From Cytophagaceae bacterium (GTDB lineage Bacteria; Bacteroidota; Bacteroidia; Cytophagales; Cytophagaceae): a DNA stretch of 50,332 bases. The notes under the pieces are model-generated. The model had not been told where the DNA came from and searched no databases. It was given only the letters and a program-made list of their open reading frames with translations. Made by a program: the position numbers and the translations under genes. The stretch covers positions 1-50,332 of the forward strand of contig JALONH010000020.1 of NCBI GenBank assembly GCA_025455005.1. Direction: 5' to 3'. Below are positions 27,254 through 37,780 of this stretch, one piece after another (the stretch's first letter is position 1; the number at the start of each line of letters is the position of its first letter).

Positions 27254-28447
27254 TTAGTTAAGATCTTCGTTCACTCGATGAAAAATCATCGTTTGATTTC
27301 CAAAGATTTTAGAGAATCCTTTCACGTCGTCACCTGTCCAAGCATTATTTTCTTCGCCATATTTTCCAAATTTAGATGACATTAGATCATGTGGAGAGGT
27401 TATACCTACAATATGAAACCTATACGGTGCCAAATAAACGTTTACTTTCCCGGAAACAGTAGCTTGCGTATCTTCCAAGAATTTTTCGAGGTTACGCATC
27501 ACCGGTTCTAAAAATTGTCCTTCATGTATAAAGGCTCCATACCAAGTAGCCAATTGGTCTTTCCAATACATTTGCCATTTAGTAAGGGTATGCTTTTCTA
27601 ATGTATGGTGCGCTTTAATAATAACCATTGGAGCGGCTGCTTCAAAACCAACACGACCTTTGATACCTATGATGGTATCACCCACGTGTATGTCACGGCC
27701 TATGCCATAAGGAGCCGCTATTTTTTGAAGCTCGATTATGGCGTCTGTTGGTTTCATTCGTTTCCCATTGAGGCCTACCAGTTGACCTTTTACAAATTCT
27801 AATTCTACTTCCTCTTCACCTGTTTTGGTAACTTGAGTAGGGAAGGCGGATTCAGGTAAATATTTATCAGACGTTAACGTTTCTTTTCCACCAACGGAAG
27901 TACCCCAAATACCCACGTTAATTGAATACGCAGCTTTTGTCCAATCGCGTACAACGCCTTTTTTCTTTAAATATTCTATTTCTTCTTCGCGAGAAAGTTT
28001 CATATCGCGAATAGGAGTAATAATTTCTACTTCCGGATTTAATATAGTAAATACCATATCAAAACGTACTTGATCGTTCCCGGCACCTGTGGATCCGTGA
28101 GCTACTGCATTTACTCCTAGTTTTTTAGCATGGTCTGCAATGGCTATCGCTTGGAATACGCGTTCCGCAGAGACAGACAAGGGGTAGGTATTATTTCGTA
28201 AAATATTACCATACACCATGAAGCGAACACATTCTTCATAATATTTGTCTATCAAGTCTAACGTAGCATGAGACGTAACACCTAATTCATAGGCTTTTTT
28301 CTCGATGTCTTTTAAATCTTCAGTAGAAAAGCCGCCGGTATTTACAATAGCGGTATGCAGTTCATATCCCAGATCTTCGGATAAGTATTTCGCACAATAG
28401 GTAGTATCTAAACCACCACTGAATGCTAATACAACTTTCTTTTTCAT
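27254..28447 (-). CDS. argG: Argininosuccinate synthase
   Basis: It joins citrulline and aspartate with ATP. The N-type PPi loop AFSGGLDTTYCAKYL is at residues 8-22, and HGSTGAGNDQVRFD near residue 113 is the second family signature. A reading from a TTG at 28465 would overlap the upstream gene; I take the ATG at 28447, 10 bp after the acetyltransferase stop, giving 397 residues. The order acetyltransferase-argG-argC-argD is the usual one in this phylum. It is cytoplasmic. Confidence 0.95.
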   Translation of the reverse strand: MKKKVVLAFSGGLDTTYCAKYLSEDLGYELHTAIVNTGGFSTEDLKDIEKKAYELGVTSHATLDLIDKYYEECVRFMVYGNILRNNTYPLSVSAERVFQAIAIADHAKKLGVNAVAHGSTGAGNDQVRFDMVFTILNPEVEIITPIRDMKLSREEEIEYLKKKGVVRDWTKAAYSINVGIWGTSVGGKETLTSDKYLPESAFPTQVTKTGEEEVELEFVKGQLVGLNGKRMKPTDAIIELQKIAAPYGIGRDIHVGDTIIGIKGRVGFEAAAPMVIIKAHHTLEKHTLTKWQMYWKDQLATWYGAFIHEGQFLEPVMRNLEKFLEDTQATVSGKVNVYLAPYRFHIVGITSPHDLMSSKFGKYGEENNAWTGDDVKGFSKIFGNQTMIFHRVNEDLN

Positions 28448-28457
28448 AATCGTAGAA

Positions 28458-29141
28458 TTAGGCAATGCCTAGAATGTTTAATAACTTATTGCTTCCCTTA
28501 GAGAAAGCTTTTAATAATTTAAAGTTTTTTAATCGTTGCCAGCGTTCCCATAGAACGGACTCTTTGATAAAGTCCCATTTTTTTGATTTAATTTCTTCCG
28601 GATCATACAACATTGCGGTACACATACACATCTTGCGTTCTTTACTCATTAATATTTCATAATTCACGCAGGATGAACATCCCTTCCAAAATTCTTCATC
28701 ATCGGTTAACTCTGTATAATGCACGGGACGGTAGCCCAACTCTGAGTTAATTTTCATTACTGCGGCACTCGTAGTTAGTCCGAATAATTTTGCATCCGGA
28801 AATTTCTTGCGACTTAGTTCGAATGCTTTTTTCTTTATTTTGGTCGCTAGGCCGTACTTTCTAAACTCCGGGGAGACAATTAAACCGGAGTTCGCTACAT
28901 ATTTTCCGTGAGCCCAAGCTTCGATGTAACAAAAGCCCGCAAAGGTTCCTTCTTTGGTAATGGCAATGATAGCCTTCCCTTCATCCATTTTTTGACGAAT
29001 GTAATCCGGGCTACGTTTTGCAATACCGGTTCCTCTTGCCTTAGCACTTTCAGCCATTTCGTCTACAATAGCATCTGCTAAATGTTTATGCTCCGGGCCG
29101 GCTACTTGAACTTTTATATCATACACATTCGTGTCGGTCAT
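28458..29141 (-). CDS. GNAT acyltransferase heading the arg operon (candidate N-acyl-glutamate synthase)
   Basis: The GNAT fold has the acyl-CoA pyrophosphate loop in VSPEFRKYGLATKIKKKAF, preceded by NSGLIV. The C-terminal part holds CSSC and, 14 residues on, CMC (CX2C and CXC), a possible metal site followed by about 55 residues ending NKLLNILGIA. No argA or argJ is present in the operon, so this gene is the natural candidate for the first step, acylation of glutamate. Whether the acyl group is acetyl or succinyl is open; argF' points to succinyl. The start could be a TTG at 29180, but that overlaps a perfect palindrome likely to be an operator, so I prefer the ATG at 29141. Confidence 0.75.
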   Translation of the reverse strand: MTDTNVYDIKVQVAGPEHKHLADAIVDEMAESAKARGTGIAKRSPDYIRQKMDEGKAIIAITKEGTFAGFCYIEAWAHGKYVANSGLIVSPEFRKYGLATKIKKKAFELSRKKFPDAKLFGLTTSAAVMKINSELGYRPVHYTELTDDEEFWKGCSSCVNYEILMSKERKMCMCTAMLYDPEEIKSKKWDFIKESVLWERWQRLKNFKLLKAFSKGSNKLLNILGIA

Positions 29142-29161
29142 TTCAGTAATGTTGTAAGATA

Positions 29162-29179
29162 TGACTAAATCTTTAGTCA
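29162..29179. promoter_or_regulatory. Palindrome upstream of the arg operon, likely operator
   Basis: TGACTAAA and TTTAGTCA are perfect 8-bp arms around a 2-bp centre (18 bp in all), 20 bp before the chosen start of the first arg gene. Length and layout recall ArgR boxes (TGAAT...ATTCA) but the bases differ. An arginine-responsive repressor is the simplest guess. Confidence 0.55.
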
Positions 29180-29230
29180 AGGGTTAAACAATGGCTTAAT
29201 AAAATGTTGAGAGTTGGTGTTTAGGAAACG

Positions 29231-29545: not shown

Positions 29546-29564
29546 AGTTTAGTTGTTGATTTTC

Positions 29565-30236
29565 ATGACATTTAGTAATCTCAGTTTAAAACTACATCCA
29601 AGTTTATACCTCCGTGATCCGAACGAAACAGAGTTAGGAAGGCTTATGGTAAGGGAGAGTATACGCATGATTGATGATTATGGTATTGAAGGCTTTACTT
29701 TCAAAAAGTTAGCAGAACACATAAAATCAACTGAGGCCTCTATTTATAGATATTTTGATAACAAACATCATTTATTAACTTACCTTATCTGTCGATATTG
29801 GGCATGGTTAAGGTTTCGAATAGATTATGAAAATAAAAACGTTTTAGAGCCAAAGGAGAAGTTAAACAATATCATCCGATTAGTTGCTACCTTAGCAGAC
29901 GATATTCCCGGAACAGGAATAGATGAAGCAGCGTTGCATCGAATAGTTGTAGCAGAAGCAAGTAAAGTATATCTTACACGAATAGTCGATGAATTGAACA
30001 ACGAAGGAATGTTTACAGAATATAAAACCTTGTGCCATCGGATTGCGCATGTGATTATGGAGTGTAATCCTACTTACCCTTTCCCAAATGCATTGGCGAC
30101 AACGATTTTAGAAACTTCACGAGACCAATTGTATTTCGTACGGCATCTGCCTTCCCTAACGAATTACCCAAGTGGTGAAAACCAGTACGCTTATGTAATT
30201 CGTTATTTGGAACAGATGGTGCGTGCTTTATTATAA
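29565..30236 (+). CDS. TetR/AcrR family regulator of the exporter operon
   Basis: The 223-residue protein has an N-terminal helix-turn-helix, YGIEGFTFKKLAEHIKSTEA followed by SIYRYFDNKHHLLTYLI (about residues 40-75), and a larger all-helical ligand domain. A TTG at 29553 also opens the frame, but the ATG at 29565 fits the promoter spacing. The stop codon is directly followed by the ATG of the ABC exporter gene, so the regulator is the first gene of that operon. A perfect palindrome within its own promoter suggests autorepression, relieved by an unknown ligand. The ligand domain matches no named subfamily that I recognise. Confidence 0.88.
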   Translation: MTFSNLSLKLHPSLYLRDPNETELGRLMVRESIRMIDDYGIEGFTFKKLAEHIKSTEASIYRYFDNKHHLLTYLICRYWAWLRFRIDYENKNVLEPKEKLNNIIRLVATLADDIPGTGIDEAALHRIVVAEASKVYLTRIVDELNNEGMFTEYKTLCHRIAHVIMECNPTYPFPNALATTILETSRDQLYFVRHLPSLTNYPSGENQYAYVIRYLEQMVRALL

Positions 30237-32411
30237 ATGTATTGTAGACGTATGTATTCAAATTTTATACAACAAATTCACGAGCAGATTTTACGTAGTA
30301 CGAATCAAGAGTACAACTTGGTATCGTTAAAAAAAGCAGTAAAGTCATATGCCGTTCATGCTCATCCTACTATTGATACCTTAGCAGATGATGTCATTTT
30401 ATCTGGTAGAGAAGCCGGAATCTTATACCTTCGAAACTATGTTACGGATACCGAATTAGAAGAGCTGATGCGAGCTCCGGAATTCCCTATTTTAGTTTTT
30501 TCTGATCGAAATGGAGAGATGGTTACGACGATCATTCAACAAGATGTTGTAGGAAAACATTTTTGGGAAATACATACCGGAGGTATACAGGAAATTTCAG
30601 AACAGCAATTTAAAGAAACGGCAGGGATTCATAAGGAGGAACGTTTGGTGCTGACTTGTATGCCCAATAAAGGTATTTTCAGTGCTCCGGATTCTAATGA
30701 ACAAGAAAACAGTAGTCCCAAAACGCCGTTTCAACGCTTTGTTCAATTATTAGTAGCAGAAAGAAAAGAGATAGGGTATTTATATGTCTATGCCATCATT
30801 GCCGGGTTAGTAAGTTTGTCCTTGCCACTTGGTATACAAAGTATAATTGGACTAGTATCCAGTGGTCAAATTTCTACTTCTGTTATTGTATTAATTCTTT
30901 TTATAGTATTGGGGTTATTGCTATCGGGAGGTCTACAGGTAATGCAATTGCGGATGGTGGAATACATACAAATGCGTTTGTTTGCCAAATCAGCTTTTGA
31001 TTTTGCATTCCGTTTACCAAAGATAAAATCGGAACATTTATTAGATCGATATCCTCCGGAAATGATGAATCGATTTTTTGATGTGGTTTCCCTTCAAAAA
31101 TCTTTTTCAAAAATTTTAATAGATTTCTCTGCAGCTTTATTACAAATATTTTTTGGGATGGTTCTATTGTCGTTGTATCACCCTTTGTTTCTTTTGTTAG
31201 GTGCTGTCTTATTACTCTTATTATGGTTCTTTATCCGCATGACCGGCCCGAAAGCATTAGAATATTCGTTAAAAGAATCAAAATACAAATACGCTGTTGT
31301 ACACTGGCTAGAAGAAATAGCCCGCTCTATTAGTACCTTTAAACTAGCTAGTTATTCTAATGTACCTATAGAAAAAACGGATAGTATAGTGACCAATTAT
31401 CTTCATGCTCGTAAAGGACATTTTAAGGTGTTGTTAACACAATATTGGTATTTCATTGCGTTTAAAGTACTGATCACGGGAGGGCTATTAATTTTAGGAT
31501 CTTATTTGTTGATTAGCCAGAGTATTAACTTAGGGCAATTTGTAGCTTCGGAAATCATTATCATTTTACTGTTAAATGCTGTTGAGAAAATAATTTCTCA
31601 GTTGGATATGGTATACGATATGTTAACCAGTGCAGAAAAACTTGGTCAAATTACAGACTTGCCTATTGAATATTCAAGGGGAATCAACGCTGACCAATTG
31701 ATAAGCGTAGGATCCGGTGTGTCAGTAAAAGTTCAGCAACTGAATTATAAATATCCAAACAGTGATCGTTTCTCTTTAAAAAATGTGTCTTTTGAGATGG
31801 CTCCCGGTAAAAAATATGTTATCACAGGTTTTAATAATTCCGGGAAAACTACTCTACTAAACGTCATGTTGGGCTATTTGTCGGATTACCAGGGCGTGAT
31901 TGCTTACAATGGAATATCATTAAAAAATTACAACCATACCAGTTTAATCAAACACATAGGAGACAATATCAGTCAAGAAGATATTTTTGAAAGTTCAATA
32001 TTAGATAATATCACCATGGGGCGTAAAGATATACCTATTGAGCAAGTTCAAAAAGCATTGGAAGCAGTGGGTTTGACAGATTACGTATTAAAACAGCCAC
32101 ATGGATTAGATACTATACTGCTCCGTACTATGCATGGAATTTCCGATGTGATTGTACATCGTTTAATTCTTGCTCGAAGTATAGCTTCTACACCCGCACT
32201 ACTTCTTATTGAAGATTTCATTGAAGGTATGAAAACGGATGATAAAGAACGTTTATTAGAACTTCTATTTAGCCCCTTAACTCCTTCTACATTAATCATG
32301 GTAAGCGATCATCCGGAAGTTTTATCAAGAGCCGATGGTATCCTTCATATGAACAGCGGTAAGCTAAAACAATTTGACTCATACGAACAATATCAAGCCT
32401 CTATTAAATAA
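30237..32411 (+). CDS. Type I secretion-like ABC exporter with degenerate ATPase motifs
   Basis: The 724 residues have an N-terminal domain (1-160) that resembles an inactive C39-like domain, a six-helix membrane part (about 180-450), and a C-terminal ATPase domain. The Walker A is normal (GFNNSGKTT) and the Q-loop Gln is in ISQEDIF. Where LSGGQ should be, the protein has ISDVI (in HGISDVIVHRLILARS); Walker B reads LLLIED instead of LLLLDE; and the H-loop position is Asp (MVSDHPEV). The frame is intact and nothing else looks decayed, so the changes are probably functional. It is followed by HlyD and TolC partners. Cargo unknown. The Met at codon 6 is an alternative start. Confidence 0.87.
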   Translation: MYCRRMYSNFIQQIHEQILRSTNQEYNLVSLKKAVKSYAVHAHPTIDTLADDVILSGREAGILYLRNYVTDTELEELMRAPEFPILVFSDRNGEMVTTIIQQDVVGKHFWEIHTGGIQEISEQQFKETAGIHKEERLVLTCMPNKGIFSAPDSNEQENSSPKTPFQRFVQLLVAERKEIGYLYVYAIIAGLVSLSLPLGIQSIIGLVSSGQISTSVIVLILFIVLGLLLSGGLQVMQLRMVEYIQMRLFAKSAFDFAFRLPKIKSEHLLDRYPPEMMNRFFDVVSLQKSFSKILIDFSAALLQIFFGMVLLSLYHPLFLLLGAVLLLLLWFFIRMTGPKALEYSLKESKYKYAVVHWLEEIARSISTFKLASYSNVPIEKTDSIVTNYLHARKGHFKVLLTQYWYFIAFKVLITGGLLILGSYLLISQSINLGQFVASEIIIILLLNAVEKIISQLDMVYDMLTSAEKLGQITDLPIEYSRGINADQLISVGSGVSVKVQQLNYKYPNSDRFSLKNVSFEMAPGKKYVITGFNNSGKTTLLNVMLGYLSDYQGVIAYNGISLKNYNHTSLIKHIGDNISQEDIFESSILDNITMGRKDIPIEQVQKALEAVGLTDYVLKQPHGLDTILLRTMHGISDVIVHRLILARSIASTPALLLIEDFIEGMKTDDKERLLELLFSPLTPSTLIMVSDHPEVLSRADGILHMNSGKLKQFDSYEQYQASIK

Positions 32412-32416
32412 TATTT

Positions 32417-33769
32417 ATGGCTACTTCAGAACATAAAGACCGATTTGCATCTCAACGTCTTATTCATACTCCCGGCAGTACACGTACTTTTGCTCGTGTA
32501 TTAGGGGGGGTATTTATGGTTTTAGTGTTGTGTTTGTTCTTACCCTGGACACAGAATATTCGCTCCAGTGGAACGGTTACTACATTTTATCCGGAAGAAC
32601 GACCACAACAAATACACGCTACCATTGCCGGTAGAATCGAGAATTGGTATGTACGGGAAGGACAATTTGTTCATCAAGGGGATACATTAGTAAGTTTATC
32701 CGAGATCAAAGAAAAATTCTTTGATCCCAACTTGTTAGATCGTATGGTCGATCAGATACAGTCTAAAAAGTCCTCCTTACAATCGGTAAAACAAAAGTCA
32801 GAGGCATTACAACAACAAGTTCAAGCGTTACAATCCGGTAAAGAGGTAAGTTTACAAAAGGCACAAAATAAGATTCTTCAAGCACGCAATAAAGTATCCA
32901 TTGATAGCGCTGATTTAGAAGCAGCTCGTATTGATTTAGAAGTAGCTAAAACACGCTATCAGAGAGATGTAGAGTTGAATAAGAAAGGGTTAAAATCAGA
33001 TGTAGAAGTAGAAAGTAGAAAATTGAAGCTGCAAGAAACAGAGTCAAAATATACGTCACAATCCAATAAATTAGCCTTAACGAAAAATGAATATTTAAAT
33101 GCTCGAATTGAGTTAAACAGTATTCGCGCTGAATATGATGATAAGATTGCTAAGGCATCGTCAGATTTGAATGCAACCTTGTCTTATTATTATGAAGCAC
33201 AAGCCGAAATTTCTAAAATGAATTCGGAGTATGCGAATGTTCAAATTAGAAATAGTTATTATCATATTGTAGCTCCGCAGTCGGGTTTTGTAGTTAAAAC
33301 TTTAGTAGCCGGTATCGGTGAAACCATAAAAGAAGGGGATGCAATAGCAACTATTTTATCAAAGAATATTCATAAGGCAGTAGAATTGTATATAAAACCA
33401 ATGGATATGCCATTAATCAGTGTTGGACGACATGTTCGGCTTCAATTTGATGGATGGCCGGCATTGGTGTTTTCCGGTTGGCCGGATGTTTCGTTTGGTA
33501 CATTTGGTGGTCAAGTAGCCGTGATCGATAAAATAGATACCAAAGGCTTATATCGAGTATTAGTGGTTCCTGATGAATTTGATCATCCATGGCCGGAAGT
33601 ACAAATAGGATCGGGTGTTTACGGTTGGGCAATGATGAATGATGTACCTATTTGGTATGAATTATGGCGTCAACTGAATGGTTTCCCTCCGGATTATAAA
33701 GGATCAGAATCCATCGACCTTCATGAGGATAATATTTACGACAAGAAAAAGAAAGGTACATCTAAATGA
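32417..33769 (+). CDS. HlyD family membrane fusion protein
   Basis: The 450-residue periplasmic adaptor links the inner-membrane exporter to the outer-membrane channel. One membrane segment lies near residues 25-45 (FARVLGGVFMVLVLCLFLPW), then the lipoyl half-motif IAGRIENWYVREGQFVHQGD. A long Gln- and Lys-rich coiled coil occupies about 100-270, and the second half-motif VAPQSGFVVKTLVAGIGE follows. The C-terminal part has a beta-barrel and a tail of unknown role (KGSESIDLHEDN). It is 5 bp after the ABC gene and its stop overlaps the tolC-like ATG (ATGA), so all are made from one message. Confidence 0.92.
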   Translation: MATSEHKDRFASQRLIHTPGSTRTFARVLGGVFMVLVLCLFLPWTQNIRSSGTVTTFYPEERPQQIHATIAGRIENWYVREGQFVHQGDTLVSLSEIKEKFFDPNLLDRMVDQIQSKKSSLQSVKQKSEALQQQVQALQSGKEVSLQKAQNKILQARNKVSIDSADLEAARIDLEVAKTRYQRDVELNKKGLKSDVEVESRKLKLQETESKYTSQSNKLALTKNEYLNARIELNSIRAEYDDKIAKASSDLNATLSYYYEAQAEISKMNSEYANVQIRNSYYHIVAPQSGFVVKTLVAGIGETIKEGDAIATILSKNIHKAVELYIKPMDMPLISVGRHVRLQFDGWPALVFSGWPDVSFGTFGGQVAVIDKIDTKGLYRVLVVPDEFDHPWPEVQIGSGVYGWAMMNDVPIWYELWRQLNGFPPDYKGSESIDLHEDNIYDKKKKGTSK

Positions 33770-35172
33770 TCCGTTGTATAGCTTTCCTACTCTTGCTTGG
33801 AGTGTCTTGGTTTTCGGAGGCACAATACGACACTACAAAGTTGCTGACGGCAGAACAGTATTACCACCAGGTGTCTTTATTTCATCCACTCGTACAGCAA
33901 GCCAACCTGTTGACAGAGGCCGCGCGTATGGAGTTACGAATAGCAAAAGGAGCTATGGATCCGGTGTTCCGGATGAAATATTATGATAAATTATTAGGCG
34001 GAACAAACTATTTTAGAGTGTGGGATAATGAAATTCATGTTCCGGTTTATTTTGCTAAAGTAGTCGCCGGTTATGAAAATAATAGTGGTGTTAATTTGAA
34101 TGGTGAAAATTTTACACCTAAAGAAGGGTTGAGTTCTTTAGGTGTTTATATACCTTTAGGACAAGGATTATTTACAGATCAACGCAGAACGGCTATTAAA
34201 CAAGCGGAGTTAATGCAAACCTACGCGGAAGCAGAAAAGGTTAAACAAATTAACAAAATCATGCTCGAGGCCATGACTTCCTATTATCAATGGTGTTTTA
34301 GTTATCAAAAATGGAAAGCGTTCGAGCGCGCTTACTTACTTGCATTAGAACGGGCTGAAGGCATTAATGAACGAGTACGTTTAGGTGATTTAGCCGCCAT
34401 CGACTCCATCGAGGCCCAAGTACAAGTACAAAATATGTTTATACAATTTCGTCAGTCTTGGCTGGAATATGCGAATGCCATGTTAGAAACTTCTACCTAT
34501 TTATGGGATGACCTCCAACAACCCTTAGTTATCAATGATTCAATACAACCTGATATTATGAGTTTTACTCGAATGGACGGGTCTTTCCGGGATAGTATTC
34601 AACAACTTTTATCTTTTGCACAACAGAACCATCCGGATATTGTAAAAAATAGAATCAAACTGCAAACCTTGCAAGCGGATTATCGATTGTCCATGGATAA
34701 ACTTAGACCTAAATTAGATGTTTCCTACAACATTATTCAAAAAGGATTTTTTATAGGGGATGATATCTTTAACCCGGGCTATATTCCGAATAATCATAAA
34801 ATGGGATTAAACTTGGTAGTACCCTTACGTATGCGGACAGAAACCGGCAAATACCAACTCATGGGTGTAAAAGTAGGTCAAGCCGAATTTCAATTAACAC
34901 AACAACAAAGGGAAGTAGAGAATCAATTAAAAGGCTATTATAATGAAGCGCTGGTTTATAGTGAACAACTAAGAATGCAACAAATGTTAGTTCAACAAGT
35001 TCGTATATTAAGTGATGGAGAACAAGACCGTTTTGATAGTGGGGAGTCTTCTTTATTTATAGTAAATCAACGGGACCAAGCGGTATTGTCGGCTGAAATT
35101 AAATTGTCCGAAATGTATTTTAAATTGGCAAAAAGTAAACTTTACTTGAAATGGGCTGCTGGGCAAATGTGA
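33766..35172 (+). CDS. TolC family outer-membrane channel protein
   Basis: The 468 residues start with a signal peptide, IRCIAFLLLLGVSWFSEAQ, then AEQYYHQVSLFHPLVQQANL, the start of the first long TolC helix. There are two OEP-type repeats, with LRMQQMLVQQVRILSDGEQ and DRFDSGESSLFIVNQRDQAV near the end of the second. As a trimer it forms the outer-membrane exit duct. Its ATG overlaps the HlyD stop codon. It completes the set of exporter, adaptor and channel, with the regulator as the first gene. No gene for a secreted substrate lies beside it. Confidence 0.93.
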   Translation: MIRCIAFLLLLGVSWFSEAQYDTTKLLTAEQYYHQVSLFHPLVQQANLLTEAARMELRIAKGAMDPVFRMKYYDKLLGGTNYFRVWDNEIHVPVYFAKVVAGYENNSGVNLNGENFTPKEGLSSLGVYIPLGQGLFTDQRRTAIKQAELMQTYAEAEKVKQINKIMLEAMTSYYQWCFSYQKWKAFERAYLLALERAEGINERVRLGDLAAIDSIEAQVQVQNMFIQFRQSWLEYANAMLETSTYLWDDLQQPLVINDSIQPDIMSFTRMDGSFRDSIQQLLSFAQQNHPDIVKNRIKLQTLQADYRLSMDKLRPKLDVSYNIIQKGFFIGDDIFNPGYIPNNHKMGLNLVVPLRMRTETGKYQLMGVKVGQAEFQLTQQQREVENQLKGYYNEALVYSEQLRMQQMLVQQVRILSDGEQDRFDSGESSLFIVNQRDQAVLSAEIKLSEMYFKLAKSKLYLKWAAGQM

Positions 35173-35323: not shown

Positions 35324-37780
35324 ATGAAAGTTTTAAAATTCGGTGGTACCTCTGTTGGTTCTGTAGACAGTATCAAACAAGTGGCAGCCATTTTAAGTGG
35401 ATTACACAAAAAGAAACAAAAGTTTGTTGTCGTATGCTCTGCCATGTCTGGTGTTACTAACACCTTGGTAGAATTAGGACAAAAAGCATCTACAACGGAT
35501 ATTTCGTATACTCAAGTTTTAAAAACGGTAGAACAGAAACATGTACAAGCTGCTAAGATATTATTGGATGTTAAAGCACAAAGTAAAGCGGTAGCACAAG
35601 TAAAGGTCTTGATAAATGAATTGCAAGATTTATTACATGGTATTTATTTATTGAAAGAATTGTCGCCCCGTACGAACGATTTATTGTTAAGCTTTGGAGA
35701 ACGTTTATCTTGTTATCTAGTTGCGGAATATGTTAAACAAGAAGGAATCCCGGTTGAATTTTTAGATGCACGGGATGTAATTAAAACAGATGCTAATTTT
35801 GGTAATGCACGGGTTGATTTTCGAAAAACAGATAAACTGATTAAGGAATATATCAAAGACTCTAAACATAGTATTGTTGTTACCGGATTTATTGCTTCAA
35901 CGGATAAAAATGAAACGACAACATTAGGCCGTGGCGGATCAGATTATACAGCCTCCATCTTTGGTGCGGCCGTTGATACAGACGCGATTGAAATCTGGAC
36001 TGATGTGGACGGGGTGATGACAGCAGATCCACGTAAAGTAAAAAGCGCGTTCACCTTAGAAGAAGTGTCCTATGTTGAGATGATGGAACTGTCTCATTTT
36101 GGAGCAAAAGTAATTTATCCCCCTACCTTACAACCTGCATTTAAAAAACGTATTCCTATATGGATAAAAAATACGTTCAATCCGGAATTTGTTGGAACAT
36201 TAATTTCTGAAAAAACGAAGAACTCTAATTACTTAGTAAAAGGTGTTACTTCTATTGAAAATATTTCGTTACTAAACTTAACCGGATCTGGGATGGTAGG
36301 AGTACCGGGTGTATCCGGTCGTTTGTTTGGAGCATTAGCTCGTCATCAGGTTAATGTTGTTTTAATTACACAGGCGTCTTCTGAACATTCTATTTGTTTT
36401 GTAATTGATTCTAAGGATACCAATAGAGCACGAATAGCGGTCGAAGAAGAGTTTACCTATGAAATTCAACAAAGCAAAATCGATAAGTTAGTAGAAAAAC
36501 ACGATTTAGCAATAGTGGCTATTGTAGGTGATAACATGCGCAACACACCGGGCATCTCCGGTAAATTATTTGGAGCACTAGGTAAAAATGGAATTAATGT
36601 TGTTGCTATAGCTCAAGGTTCATCCGAAATAAATTTATCCGTTGTAATCCCTAAGGCCGATTTAACGAAAGCCTTAAATATTATTCATGAATCCTTCTTT
36701 ATTAGTGATACGAAGGACATGAATGTTTTCATTGTAGGAGTTGGCTTGATTGGAAGTACGCTTATTAAACAAATACAAAAACAGGCGGCCTATTTGTTAA
36801 AAGAAAAGAATATTAAAATAAATATTGTAGGGTTAGCTAATTCCAGAAAGATGTTAATTCAACCCAACGGTATTGCCTTGACTACATGGAAAGATAAAGT
36901 GGAGAATGGGGAAAAAGCAGATATGAAATCATTTGTACAAAAAATGATTGAGTTGAATTTGCCCAATACGATTTTCGTTGATAATACGTCTCATAAGGAT
37001 GTGGTAATTCATTATCATTCAATTTTGGATGCCTCTATATCAGTGGTTACTCCTAATAAATTAGCAAACTCCGGCTTATATAAAGAATATAAAAAATTAC
37101 AAGAAACCGCGTTCAAGCGTCGTGTGAAATTTTTATACGAAACAAATGTTGGGGCCGGCCTTCCGGTTATCAGTACGTTAAATGATTTGAAAGATTCAGG
37201 TGATAAAATTATTCGAATAGAAGGCATTTTATCCGGTACCTTATCCTATATTTTTAATACGTTTAAAGGCGACAAGAAATTTTCTGATGTTGTAAAAGAA
37301 GCGAAAGAAAAAGGATATACAGAGCCGGATCCGCGGGATGATTTAAATGGTAAAGATGTGGCCCGTAAAATTTTGATTTTGTCTAGAGAAGCCGGCTTTA
37401 ATTTAGAAATGGAAGATGTTGTTATTGAAAATATTTTACCAGCGCCTTGTTTAAAAGCCAAAACGGTAGAAGAATTCTTTTTACAATTAGAAAAAAATAA
37501 TGAAGTTTTTGCTCAGCGAAGAGCAGAAGCGGATAAAGCTAATAAAGTTTTACGCTTTATAGCTAAGTTGGAAAACGGCAAAGCAACGGTATCGCTATTA
37601 TCTGTCGATGCGGCGCATCCCTTTTATAGTTTATCCGGTAGCGATAACATGATATCGTATACAACAGAGCGATATAAGGATCGTCCCCTCGTAATCAAGG
37701 GTCCGGGAGCAGGAGCAGAAGTTACTGCGGCTGGTGTGTTTGCCGATATTTTACGAATCAGTAATTATTTGAAAGGTTAA
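35324..37780 (+). CDS. thrA: Bifunctional aspartokinase/homoserine dehydrogenase
   Basis: The first enzyme and the third enzyme of threonine synthesis in one chain of 818 residues. The kinase domain begins KVLKFGGTSVGSVDSI and contains TLGRGGSDYTASIFGAA. Two ACT regulatory repeats follow (GMVGVPGVSGRLFGAL and NTPGISGKLFGALGKNG), then the dehydrogenase with its Rossmann strand VFIVGVGLIGSTLI near residue 465, NKLANSGLYKEY and ETNVGAGLPVISTL. The ACT pair makes feedback control by threonine likely. The 11-bp gap to thrB and their direction show one operon; the middle step, aspartate-semialdehyde dehydrogenase, is not here. Confidence 0.97.
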   Translation: MKVLKFGGTSVGSVDSIKQVAAILSGLHKKKQKFVVVCSAMSGVTNTLVELGQKASTTDISYTQVLKTVEQKHVQAAKILLDVKAQSKAVAQVKVLINELQDLLHGIYLLKELSPRTNDLLLSFGERLSCYLVAEYVKQEGIPVEFLDARDVIKTDANFGNARVDFRKTDKLIKEYIKDSKHSIVVTGFIASTDKNETTTLGRGGSDYTASIFGAAVDTDAIEIWTDVDGVMTADPRKVKSAFTLEEVSYVEMMELSHFGAKVIYPPTLQPAFKKRIPIWIKNTFNPEFVGTLISEKTKNSNYLVKGVTSIENISLLNLTGSGMVGVPGVSGRLFGALARHQVNVVLITQASSEHSICFVIDSKDTNRARIAVEEEFTYEIQQSKIDKLVEKHDLAIVAIVGDNMRNTPGISGKLFGALGKNGINVVAIAQGSSEINLSVVIPKADLTKALNIIHESFFISDTKDMNVFIVGVGLIGSTLIKQIQKQAAYLLKEKNIKINIVGLANSRKMLIQPNGIALTTWKDKVENGEKADMKSFVQKMIELNLPNTIFVDNTSHKDVVIHYHSILDASISVVTPNKLANSGLYKEYKKLQETAFKRRVKFLYETNVGAGLPVISTLNDLKDSGDKIIRIEGILSGTLSYIFNTFKGDKKFSDVVKEAKEKGYTEPDPRDDLNGKDVARKILILSREAGFNLEMEDVVIENILPAPCLKAKTVEEFFLQLEKNNEVFAQRRAEADKANKVLRFIAKLENGKATVSLLSVDAAHPFYSLSGSDNMISYTTERYKDRPLVIKGPGAGAEVTAAGVFADILRISNYLKG

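Follow-up and report, generated by a model that had tools for sequence, protein, structure and literature searches.

The window, a stretch of 50,332 nucleotides from a Cytophagaceae bacterium, carries a tight run of genes for a TetR-family regulator, an ABC exporter half-transporter, a HlyD-family adaptor and a TolC-family channel (Table 1), an order that a sequence-only reading had described and that open reading frames and Pfam matches confirm. The exporter gene, complete from ATG to stop, encodes 724 amino acids in which an exporter transmembrane domain (TMD) is fused to a nucleotide-binding domain (NBD) fold (PF00664 and PF00005), and its structural model matches type IV exporters at VIA Z 28-29 over about 550 residues with rmsd 3-5. 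The neighbours of the operon (window 27254-29180 and 35324-37780), which we take to be argininosuccinate synthase and an acetyltransferase on the other strand and a bifunctional aspartokinase/homoserine dehydrogenase, are unrelated to it.

Table 1. Features of the exporter operon, with positions in the window and the basis of each assignment
Feature	Position	Strand	Basis
TetR-family regulator	29553..30236	+	PF00440 E 1.7e-7; recurs in 66/111 loci
ABC exporter half-transporter, NBD catalytic motifs lost	30237..32411	+	PF00664, PF00005; model mean pLDDT 89
C39-like domain, residues 1-153, without conserved catalytic residues	30237..30695	+	model pLDDT 87
Transmembrane domain, six TM helices, residues 160-478, conserved part	30714..31670	+	
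Coupling helix 2 by position, residues 365-370	31329..31346	+	DSSP of model
Glu439, TM6	31551..31553	+	conservation counts
Lys451, TM6	31587..31589	+	conservation counts
Pseudo-ATPase NBD, about residues 495-718	31719..32390	+	Pfam, alignment, model
Walker A GFNNSGKTT, kept, residues 531-539	31827..31853	+	
Signature position GISDVIVHR, residues 634-642, LSGGQ lost	32136..32162	+	
Walker B LLLIED, residues 655-660, Glu-Asp in place of Asp-Glu	32199..32216	+	
H-loop position S-D-H (VSDHPE), Asp691 for His, His692 adjoining	32304..32312	+	
HlyD-family periplasmic adaptor	32417..33769	+	TIGR01843 E 1.4e-22 (below its cut-off), PF16576, PF13437
TolC-family outer-membrane protein	33766..35172	+	PF02321 E 1.9e-28

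Results

An exporter with altered ATPase motifs

Open reading frame and alignment both bear out the earlier observation that Walker A is normal while the signature, Walker B and H-loop are altered. The Walker A sequence fits GxxGxGK[ST] with a variant of the first glycine spacing (xxS), the Walker B Asp, catalytic Glu and H-loop His are all missing, and the motif columns are where the protein departs from three canonical exporters of its own genome. The Q-loop described alongside them stands only in part: the window protein does have a Gln, but the residue is not conserved in the family (Gln in 37 of 173 sequences at that column), and the column lies one step off the canonical Gln, since the three canonical rows show Glu or Asp there. 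Residue 684 (window 32286-32288), just before the H-loop strand, is Ser in this protein, at a position where the family has Trp in 0.90 of 134 NBD-bearing sequences.

The model of the N-terminal domain resembles the ComA peptidase domain (5xe9_A; VIA Z 10.1, rmsd 3.7, 125 residues) and HlyB (7sgr_A; Z 9.5, rmsd 5.3, 128 residues); Foldseek alone gave a weak match (best C39 E 1.9e-3). An alignment of 25 N-domains has no invariant column at all, and hence no conserved catalytic Cys or His. An inactive C39-like domain, as first proposed from the letters, is a fair reading of these fold matches and of the missing catalytic residues. The accompanying idea that such a domain would suit a large unprocessed cargo finds no support, as only 69 of 138 sequences have the N-domain, at a median identity of 0.18 between pairs.

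Motif loss is a family trait

Homologues at E up to 1e-40 occur in 39 of 59 relatives (own genome counted), and the TMD was found in 318 of the 390 genomes of the order. A survey of the phylum recovered the gene in 29 of 118 genomes, and two other classes have it in 4 of 61 and 6 of 61. A first set of 150 hits gave 137 proteins after removal of identical ones and 138 with the window protein, of which 134 bear an NBD; three NBD-less genes (L046-L048) and one cut by a contig end (L091) were left out. The full alignment holds 173 distinct NBD-bearing proteins, and all but L180-L186 make up a main clade of 166 that includes the window protein.

We scored four catalytic marks, namely the signature Ser with the second Gly, the Walker B Asp, the catalytic Glu and the H-loop His. 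Among the 166 main-clade members 107 retain none of these, 52 retain one and seven retain two; the signature pair persists in nine, the Walker B Asp in 39, the catalytic Glu in 15 and the H-loop His in three (L040, L042 and L246). The Walker A Lys is present in 158, with Arg in five more and neither in L045, L172 and L239. A further member, L313, has the Lys without the P-loop glycines. Three plasmid-borne Bacteroidota members, from Persicobacter, Aureibacter and Riemerella, also lack most marks.

As no main-clade relative carries the full motif set, the loss seen in the window is not a matter of chance. The sequence-only reading had held that close homologues with LSGGQ and LLLLDE would point to simple decay of this copy; 0 of the 166 main-clade members have them, and its proposal of a distinct exporter subfamily is upheld, with motif loss family-wide in the main clade. 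Catalytic motif loss is thus a trait of the family, though not a universal one. Hydrolysis by other conserved residues, which the same reading had entertained, is not supported, because the altered positions drift across the family (signature S/P/A, Walker B D/E/N, H-loop N/S/D/K) and because the NBD can vanish whole. A full-text search, with subscription journals and preprints outside its scope, found no published account of this family's dead or missing NBD.

The degenerate domain is maintained by selection

The TMD is conserved along its length, with a mean column identity of 63 percent. The NBD was more conserved than the TMD in only 2 of 8911 family pairs (median identity 0.51 for the TMD and 0.34 for the NBD), the reverse of an MsbA-like control in which the NBD was the more conserved in 321 of 325 pairs (26 controls from relatives, representing one family, with L262, L275 and L276 left out). 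Where dS was measurable, and many pairs with saturated dS gave no value, NBD dN/dS in close pairs ranged from 0.02 to 0.50, mostly under 0.3 and below 1 in every case, and TMD dN/dS ranged from 0.02 to 0.18 in full-length genes and from 0.02 to 0.27 in NBD-less genes. The dead NBD is therefore maintained, if loosely, by purifying selection in the pairs that gave a value.

HlyD and TolC follow the gene in 106 of 111 long loci by a BLAST test that could miss divergent partners; the five exceptions are L038 (HlyD only), L041 (HlyD and TolC upstream), L040, L042 and L140. A decaying pseudogene or an assembly artefact, which motif loss in an otherwise full-length gene might bring to mind, has a negligible chance of being the explanation, as the same state recurs in relatives across the class, NBD dN/dS stays below 1 throughout, and the operons are so widely intact. 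Decay of a single copy is rejected on the same grounds, motif loss being common to relatives and the NBD being under purifying selection.

Besides HlyD and TolC only the TetR gene recurs (66 of 111 loci, with the next best neighbour at 12), and its presence suggests inducible efflux rather than secretion of one protein. Among the neighbours in these 111 loci we found no conserved cargo gene. Of 211 rows, 13 have another ABC gene within the stretch, two of these being broken genes and none lying in a recurrent place; with 82 stretches shorter than 6 kb, distant neighbours are not seen there. The earlier statement that no second ATPase is coded nearby thus holds, with none recurrent in the loci examined and none in the operon of the window.

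A clade without the nucleotide-binding domain

We identified 33 distinct genes of 332-385 amino acids that encode the TMD only. HlyD follows in all 33, at gaps of -40 to +119 bp, and TolC is present in 32; the stretch of the remaining locus (L177) is too short, and TolC is visible in a longer one (L189) that covers this gene. These genes form one clade on the TMD tree (support 1.0), and the HlyD genes beside them group together as well, 33 of 141 sequences in a single clade (support 1.0; midpoint-rooted, no outgroup member). Both trees are consistent with a single origin of the NBD-less form. NBD-less genes are present in families f11, f13 (to which Hymenobacter and Pontibacter belong, by identical proteins), f17 and, in another order, f23, a distribution that suggests transfer of the operon between lineages. 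When 80 TMD-positive genomes picked for low scores were re-examined, frame length indicated an NBD-less gene in 43, a share that is not that of a random sample, and one of the 43 (G226) has a stop inside the frame.

The NBD seems to have been lost from this clade rather than relocated. In six control genomes that carry a full gene, a family-NBD profile scored 254-332 bits; its best match across 30 genomes of the NBD-less kind was 185 bits among the 77 of 87 to 140 first-look candidates scored in each, a level that canonical exporters in the controls also reach (184 bits in G027), and the best matches listed lie in frames of at least 590 residues. Thus no family NBD was found elsewhere in these 30 genomes among the candidates scored, in a search that could miss a very divergent orphan. 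We also considered a frameshift, or an NBD encoded separately next to these genes, and rejected both, as the TMD gene abuts or overlaps hlyD and the candidates scored in the genome search reached no more than the level of canonical exporters.

Two genomes hold both NBD-less and NBD-bearing copies: G148 (L224, L225 and L226; two NBD-less, one full) and G087 (L228 and L229). The broken genes L244 (G182) and L245 (G168), which the count of 33 does not include, have their TMD divided between two reading frames; in G168 the HlyD gene is in pieces as well, which makes sequence error or decay likely.

The segment in which NBD-less genes differ most from the others, residues 360-383, holds coupling helix 2. 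Over residues 360-375 the consensus residue has a frequency of 0.59 in NBD-bearing and 0.21 in NBD-less genes, and a second pair of values within the segment is 0.58 and 0.17; intracellular loop ICL1 (272-295) is kept in NBD-less genes at least as well as in full-length ones. Divergence around coupling helix 2 is what loss of NBD docking predicts.

Degenerate-site heterodimeric exporters are well known, and the family protein might likewise have a canonical half-transporter from elsewhere in the genome as its partner, after the manner of TAP1/TAP2 or TM287/288. In 39 of 39 relatives other exporter genes match TIGR03375 at E up to 1e-60 (none over the cut-off). However, second ABC genes are scarce and unplaced in the stretches described above, and NBD-less members can form no NBD dimer, yet their operon is kept under purifying selection. 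Pairing with an unlinked ATPase, another suggestion of the sequence-only reading, is therefore improbable in view of this maintained clade and its diverged coupling helix 2 region.

Catalytic loss is derived and may have been repeated

In the survey of the phylum nine genomes outside the class have the gene: L180-L184 and L186 keep the Walker B Asp-Glu and the H-loop His, and L161, L169 and L185 do not. Four further members of one of those classes (L307-L310) likewise retain Asp-Glu and His, for a total of 10 such out-of-class members, and catalytic loss is therefore derived. On a TMD tree rooted on canonical exporters the competent members lie near the base, with the dead main clade inside them (support 0.92). 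Their signatures are already unusual (e.g. LSTGE, ISFGM and LPGGL, with LSTGQ in L186), so the signature may erode first.

L185 and a group of sphingomonads look like separate losses, the placement of the sphingomonads being poorly supported (0.29). In what is apparently an independent loss, L185 (1006-3204)/L195 lacks the second signature Gly, the catalytic Glu and the H-loop His, all of which its relatives L183 and L184 keep. The Sphingomonadales relatives, found by protein search of plasmids, have the order ABC-HlyD-TolC where annotated and intact. All eight that were aligned (L311 4929-9154 on Novosphingobium aromaticivorans pNL2, L314 and L317-L322), out of 15 plasmid records, lack the Walker A Lys, the Walker B acids and the H-loop His; Glu439 is kept and Lys451 is absent. 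In the record left out for its interrupted gene (L316 3001-5736, a Sphingopyxis sp. 113P3 plasmid) an IS3-family transposase gene breaks the family gene, and three sphingomonad genes are annotated just as 'ABC transporter transmembrane domain-containing protein'. A genome paper on Blastomonas fulva presents its HlyBD2-OMP2 system, a possible counterpart of these genes with its best relative in N. aromaticivorans, as an ordinary ABC-type pump (PMC9505733).

These lineages bear on the view that ATP acts as a switch, with Walker A binding and dimer closure, without real turnover or with very slow hydrolysis, driving transport. Retention of the Walker A Lys (or Arg) in nearly all main-clade members and an NBD that folds well in the model and is under selection would fit such a switch, but a binding-only cycle yields no net energy for uphill transport, the Lys is lost in eight of eight sphingomonads and in L045, L172 and L239, the P-loop glycines are absent in L313, and 33 genes have no NBD at all. 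We consider this explanation unlikely for the family, though by no means negligible. ATP probably still matters in most members, given that Walker A is kept there, most likely as a regulator at most.

Family-specific residues in TM6

Two charged residues of TM6, whose membrane position is judged from helix boundaries alone, set the family apart. Glu439 occurs in 164 of 166 main-clade members (Asp in L240 and L241), 33 of 33 NBD-less and seven of seven out-of-class proteins, and Lys451 in 166 of 166, 33 of 33 and six of seven. Both are present in 138 of 138 proteins of the first set, and neither occurs in any of 49 canonical exporters from the same order (kept from 56 loci whose longest frame had to exceed 500 aa and contain L-S-x-G-Q). 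We rejected the possibility that the two were gained with NBD loss, as both already occur in ATPase-competent relatives and are older than the loss; for this reason they mark the family rather than ATPase loss, and are not a replacement for ATP. The only residues that are characteristic of the main clade, shared by 33 of 33 NBD-less proteins and lacking in seven of seven out-of-class ones, are Gly199 (166 of 166), Gln303 (159 of 166) and Phe435 (165 of 166). From their conservation, we regard Glu439 and Lys451 as candidate coupling residues.

Discussion

We propose, with a probability of roughly 0.55, that this operon encodes a tripartite exporter no longer run by its own ATP hydrolysis, with an inner-membrane part that would be secondary-active. 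Under this proposal a TetR-associated system would comprise an ABC-type half-transporter in the inner membrane, a HlyD adaptor and a TolC channel, the half-transporter descending from an ATP-driven type IV ABC exporter of the ComA/PCAT/HlyB lineage. The NBD would survive in most members as a folded pseudo-ATPase, probably still ATP-binding, with a possible part in locking or regulating the dimer; one clade has dispensed with it, and there the region of coupling helix 2, on which it docks, has diverged. The membrane domain would then act as a secondary transporter, powered either by the proton-motive force or by the binding and release of substrate, with Glu439 and Lys451 as candidates for coupling. 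The sequences themselves establish the family-wide loss of catalytic motifs, the kept Walker A, the purifying selection and an NBD-less clade that has its HlyD and TolC partners; from these patterns we infer the lack of hydrolysis, the export, its energy source and its substrate.

The same conservation could belong to a protein that transports nothing, an ABC-derived dimer that serves the HlyD-TolC conduit as a scaffold or gate, or that acts as an envelope sensor. Invariant residues in the intracellular loops as well as in TM6, and the lack of a conserved cargo gene nearby, are compatible with such a role; conservation of the TMD along its length and a TetR-HlyD-TolC setting that is that of efflux pumps speak against it, neither of them decisively. 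We give this alternative a small chance and favour the secondary-active exporter.

Every stage of this series is extant: an NBD with its motifs, a pseudo-ATPase that probably still binds ATP, an NBD without the P-loop Lys, and no NBD. The family offers a natural experiment on whether the membrane domains of ABC exporters need their motor, and since these stages occur in living genera and within one operon type, the use of an ABC fold as a secondary transporter with adaptor and TolC is directly testable. The annotation 'ABC transporter ATP-binding protein' on such genes may accordingly be wrong about the energy source.

Comparison with known systems

The nearest relatives in fold are the type I secretion and PCAT exporters (HlyB-HlyD-TolC, ComA and PCAT1), which the window protein resembles from end to end, C39-like domain included (8dck_A, 724 alignment columns, rmsd 8.6); adaptor and TolC partners are common to both, and among solved structures the TMD profile matches ComA first and also PCAT1. 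The family differs in having lost its catalytic motifs, in the lack of a conserved cargo gene nearby and in members without an NBD, and the window protein falls far below the curated cut-offs of TIGR03375 (144 of 693 bits) and TIGR01846 (91 of 726 bits). Degenerate-site heterodimers (TAP1/TAP2, TM287/288, TmrAB and BmrCD) share with it degenerate motifs in a folded NBD; in contrast, the family operon has no canonical partner, and both NBDs of a homodimer would be dead.

EmrAB-TolC is an MFS tripartite pump with a HlyD-like adaptor and a secondary-active inner part. The window adaptor matches the EmrA family (E 6e-16, below cut-off), whereas the inner-membrane part of our family is derived from an ABC exporter and not from MFS. 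A review describes tripartite systems as energised by ABC, RND and MFS parts (PMC8277102). We tentatively suggest, at somewhat less than even odds, that the family could constitute a fourth kind, an ABC-derived and ATP-independent class of tripartite envelope pump that is probably proton-driven.

A precedent in mechanism is SbmA/BacA, and transport in our family is probably secondary by analogy with it. One paper describes SbmA as proton-driven, as akin to the TMD of ABC transporters and as derived from a YddA-like ancestor, and the SLiPTs to which it belongs as being without coupling helices (PMC13316013), a lack that parallels the diverged coupling helix 2 sequence of NBD-less members. In both cases a type IV exporter TMD works, or in our family would work, without its own ATPase. 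SbmA is absent among the 23 matches of the TMD profile to solved structures at E up to 1; as the profile finds ComA and PCAT1 instead, the parallel is probably one of mechanism only. The family probably belongs to another ABC lineage, works with HlyD and TolC, and has in its NBD-less members room for about six TM helices, unlike SbmA/BacA. SbmA/BacA has no NBD. The window protein does possess this domain, which is missing from 33 relatives and present in a dead form in most sampled members. Proton coupling in SLiPTs runs through a glutamate ladder; our family has one near-invariant acid in TM6, Glu439, as its candidate for that role.
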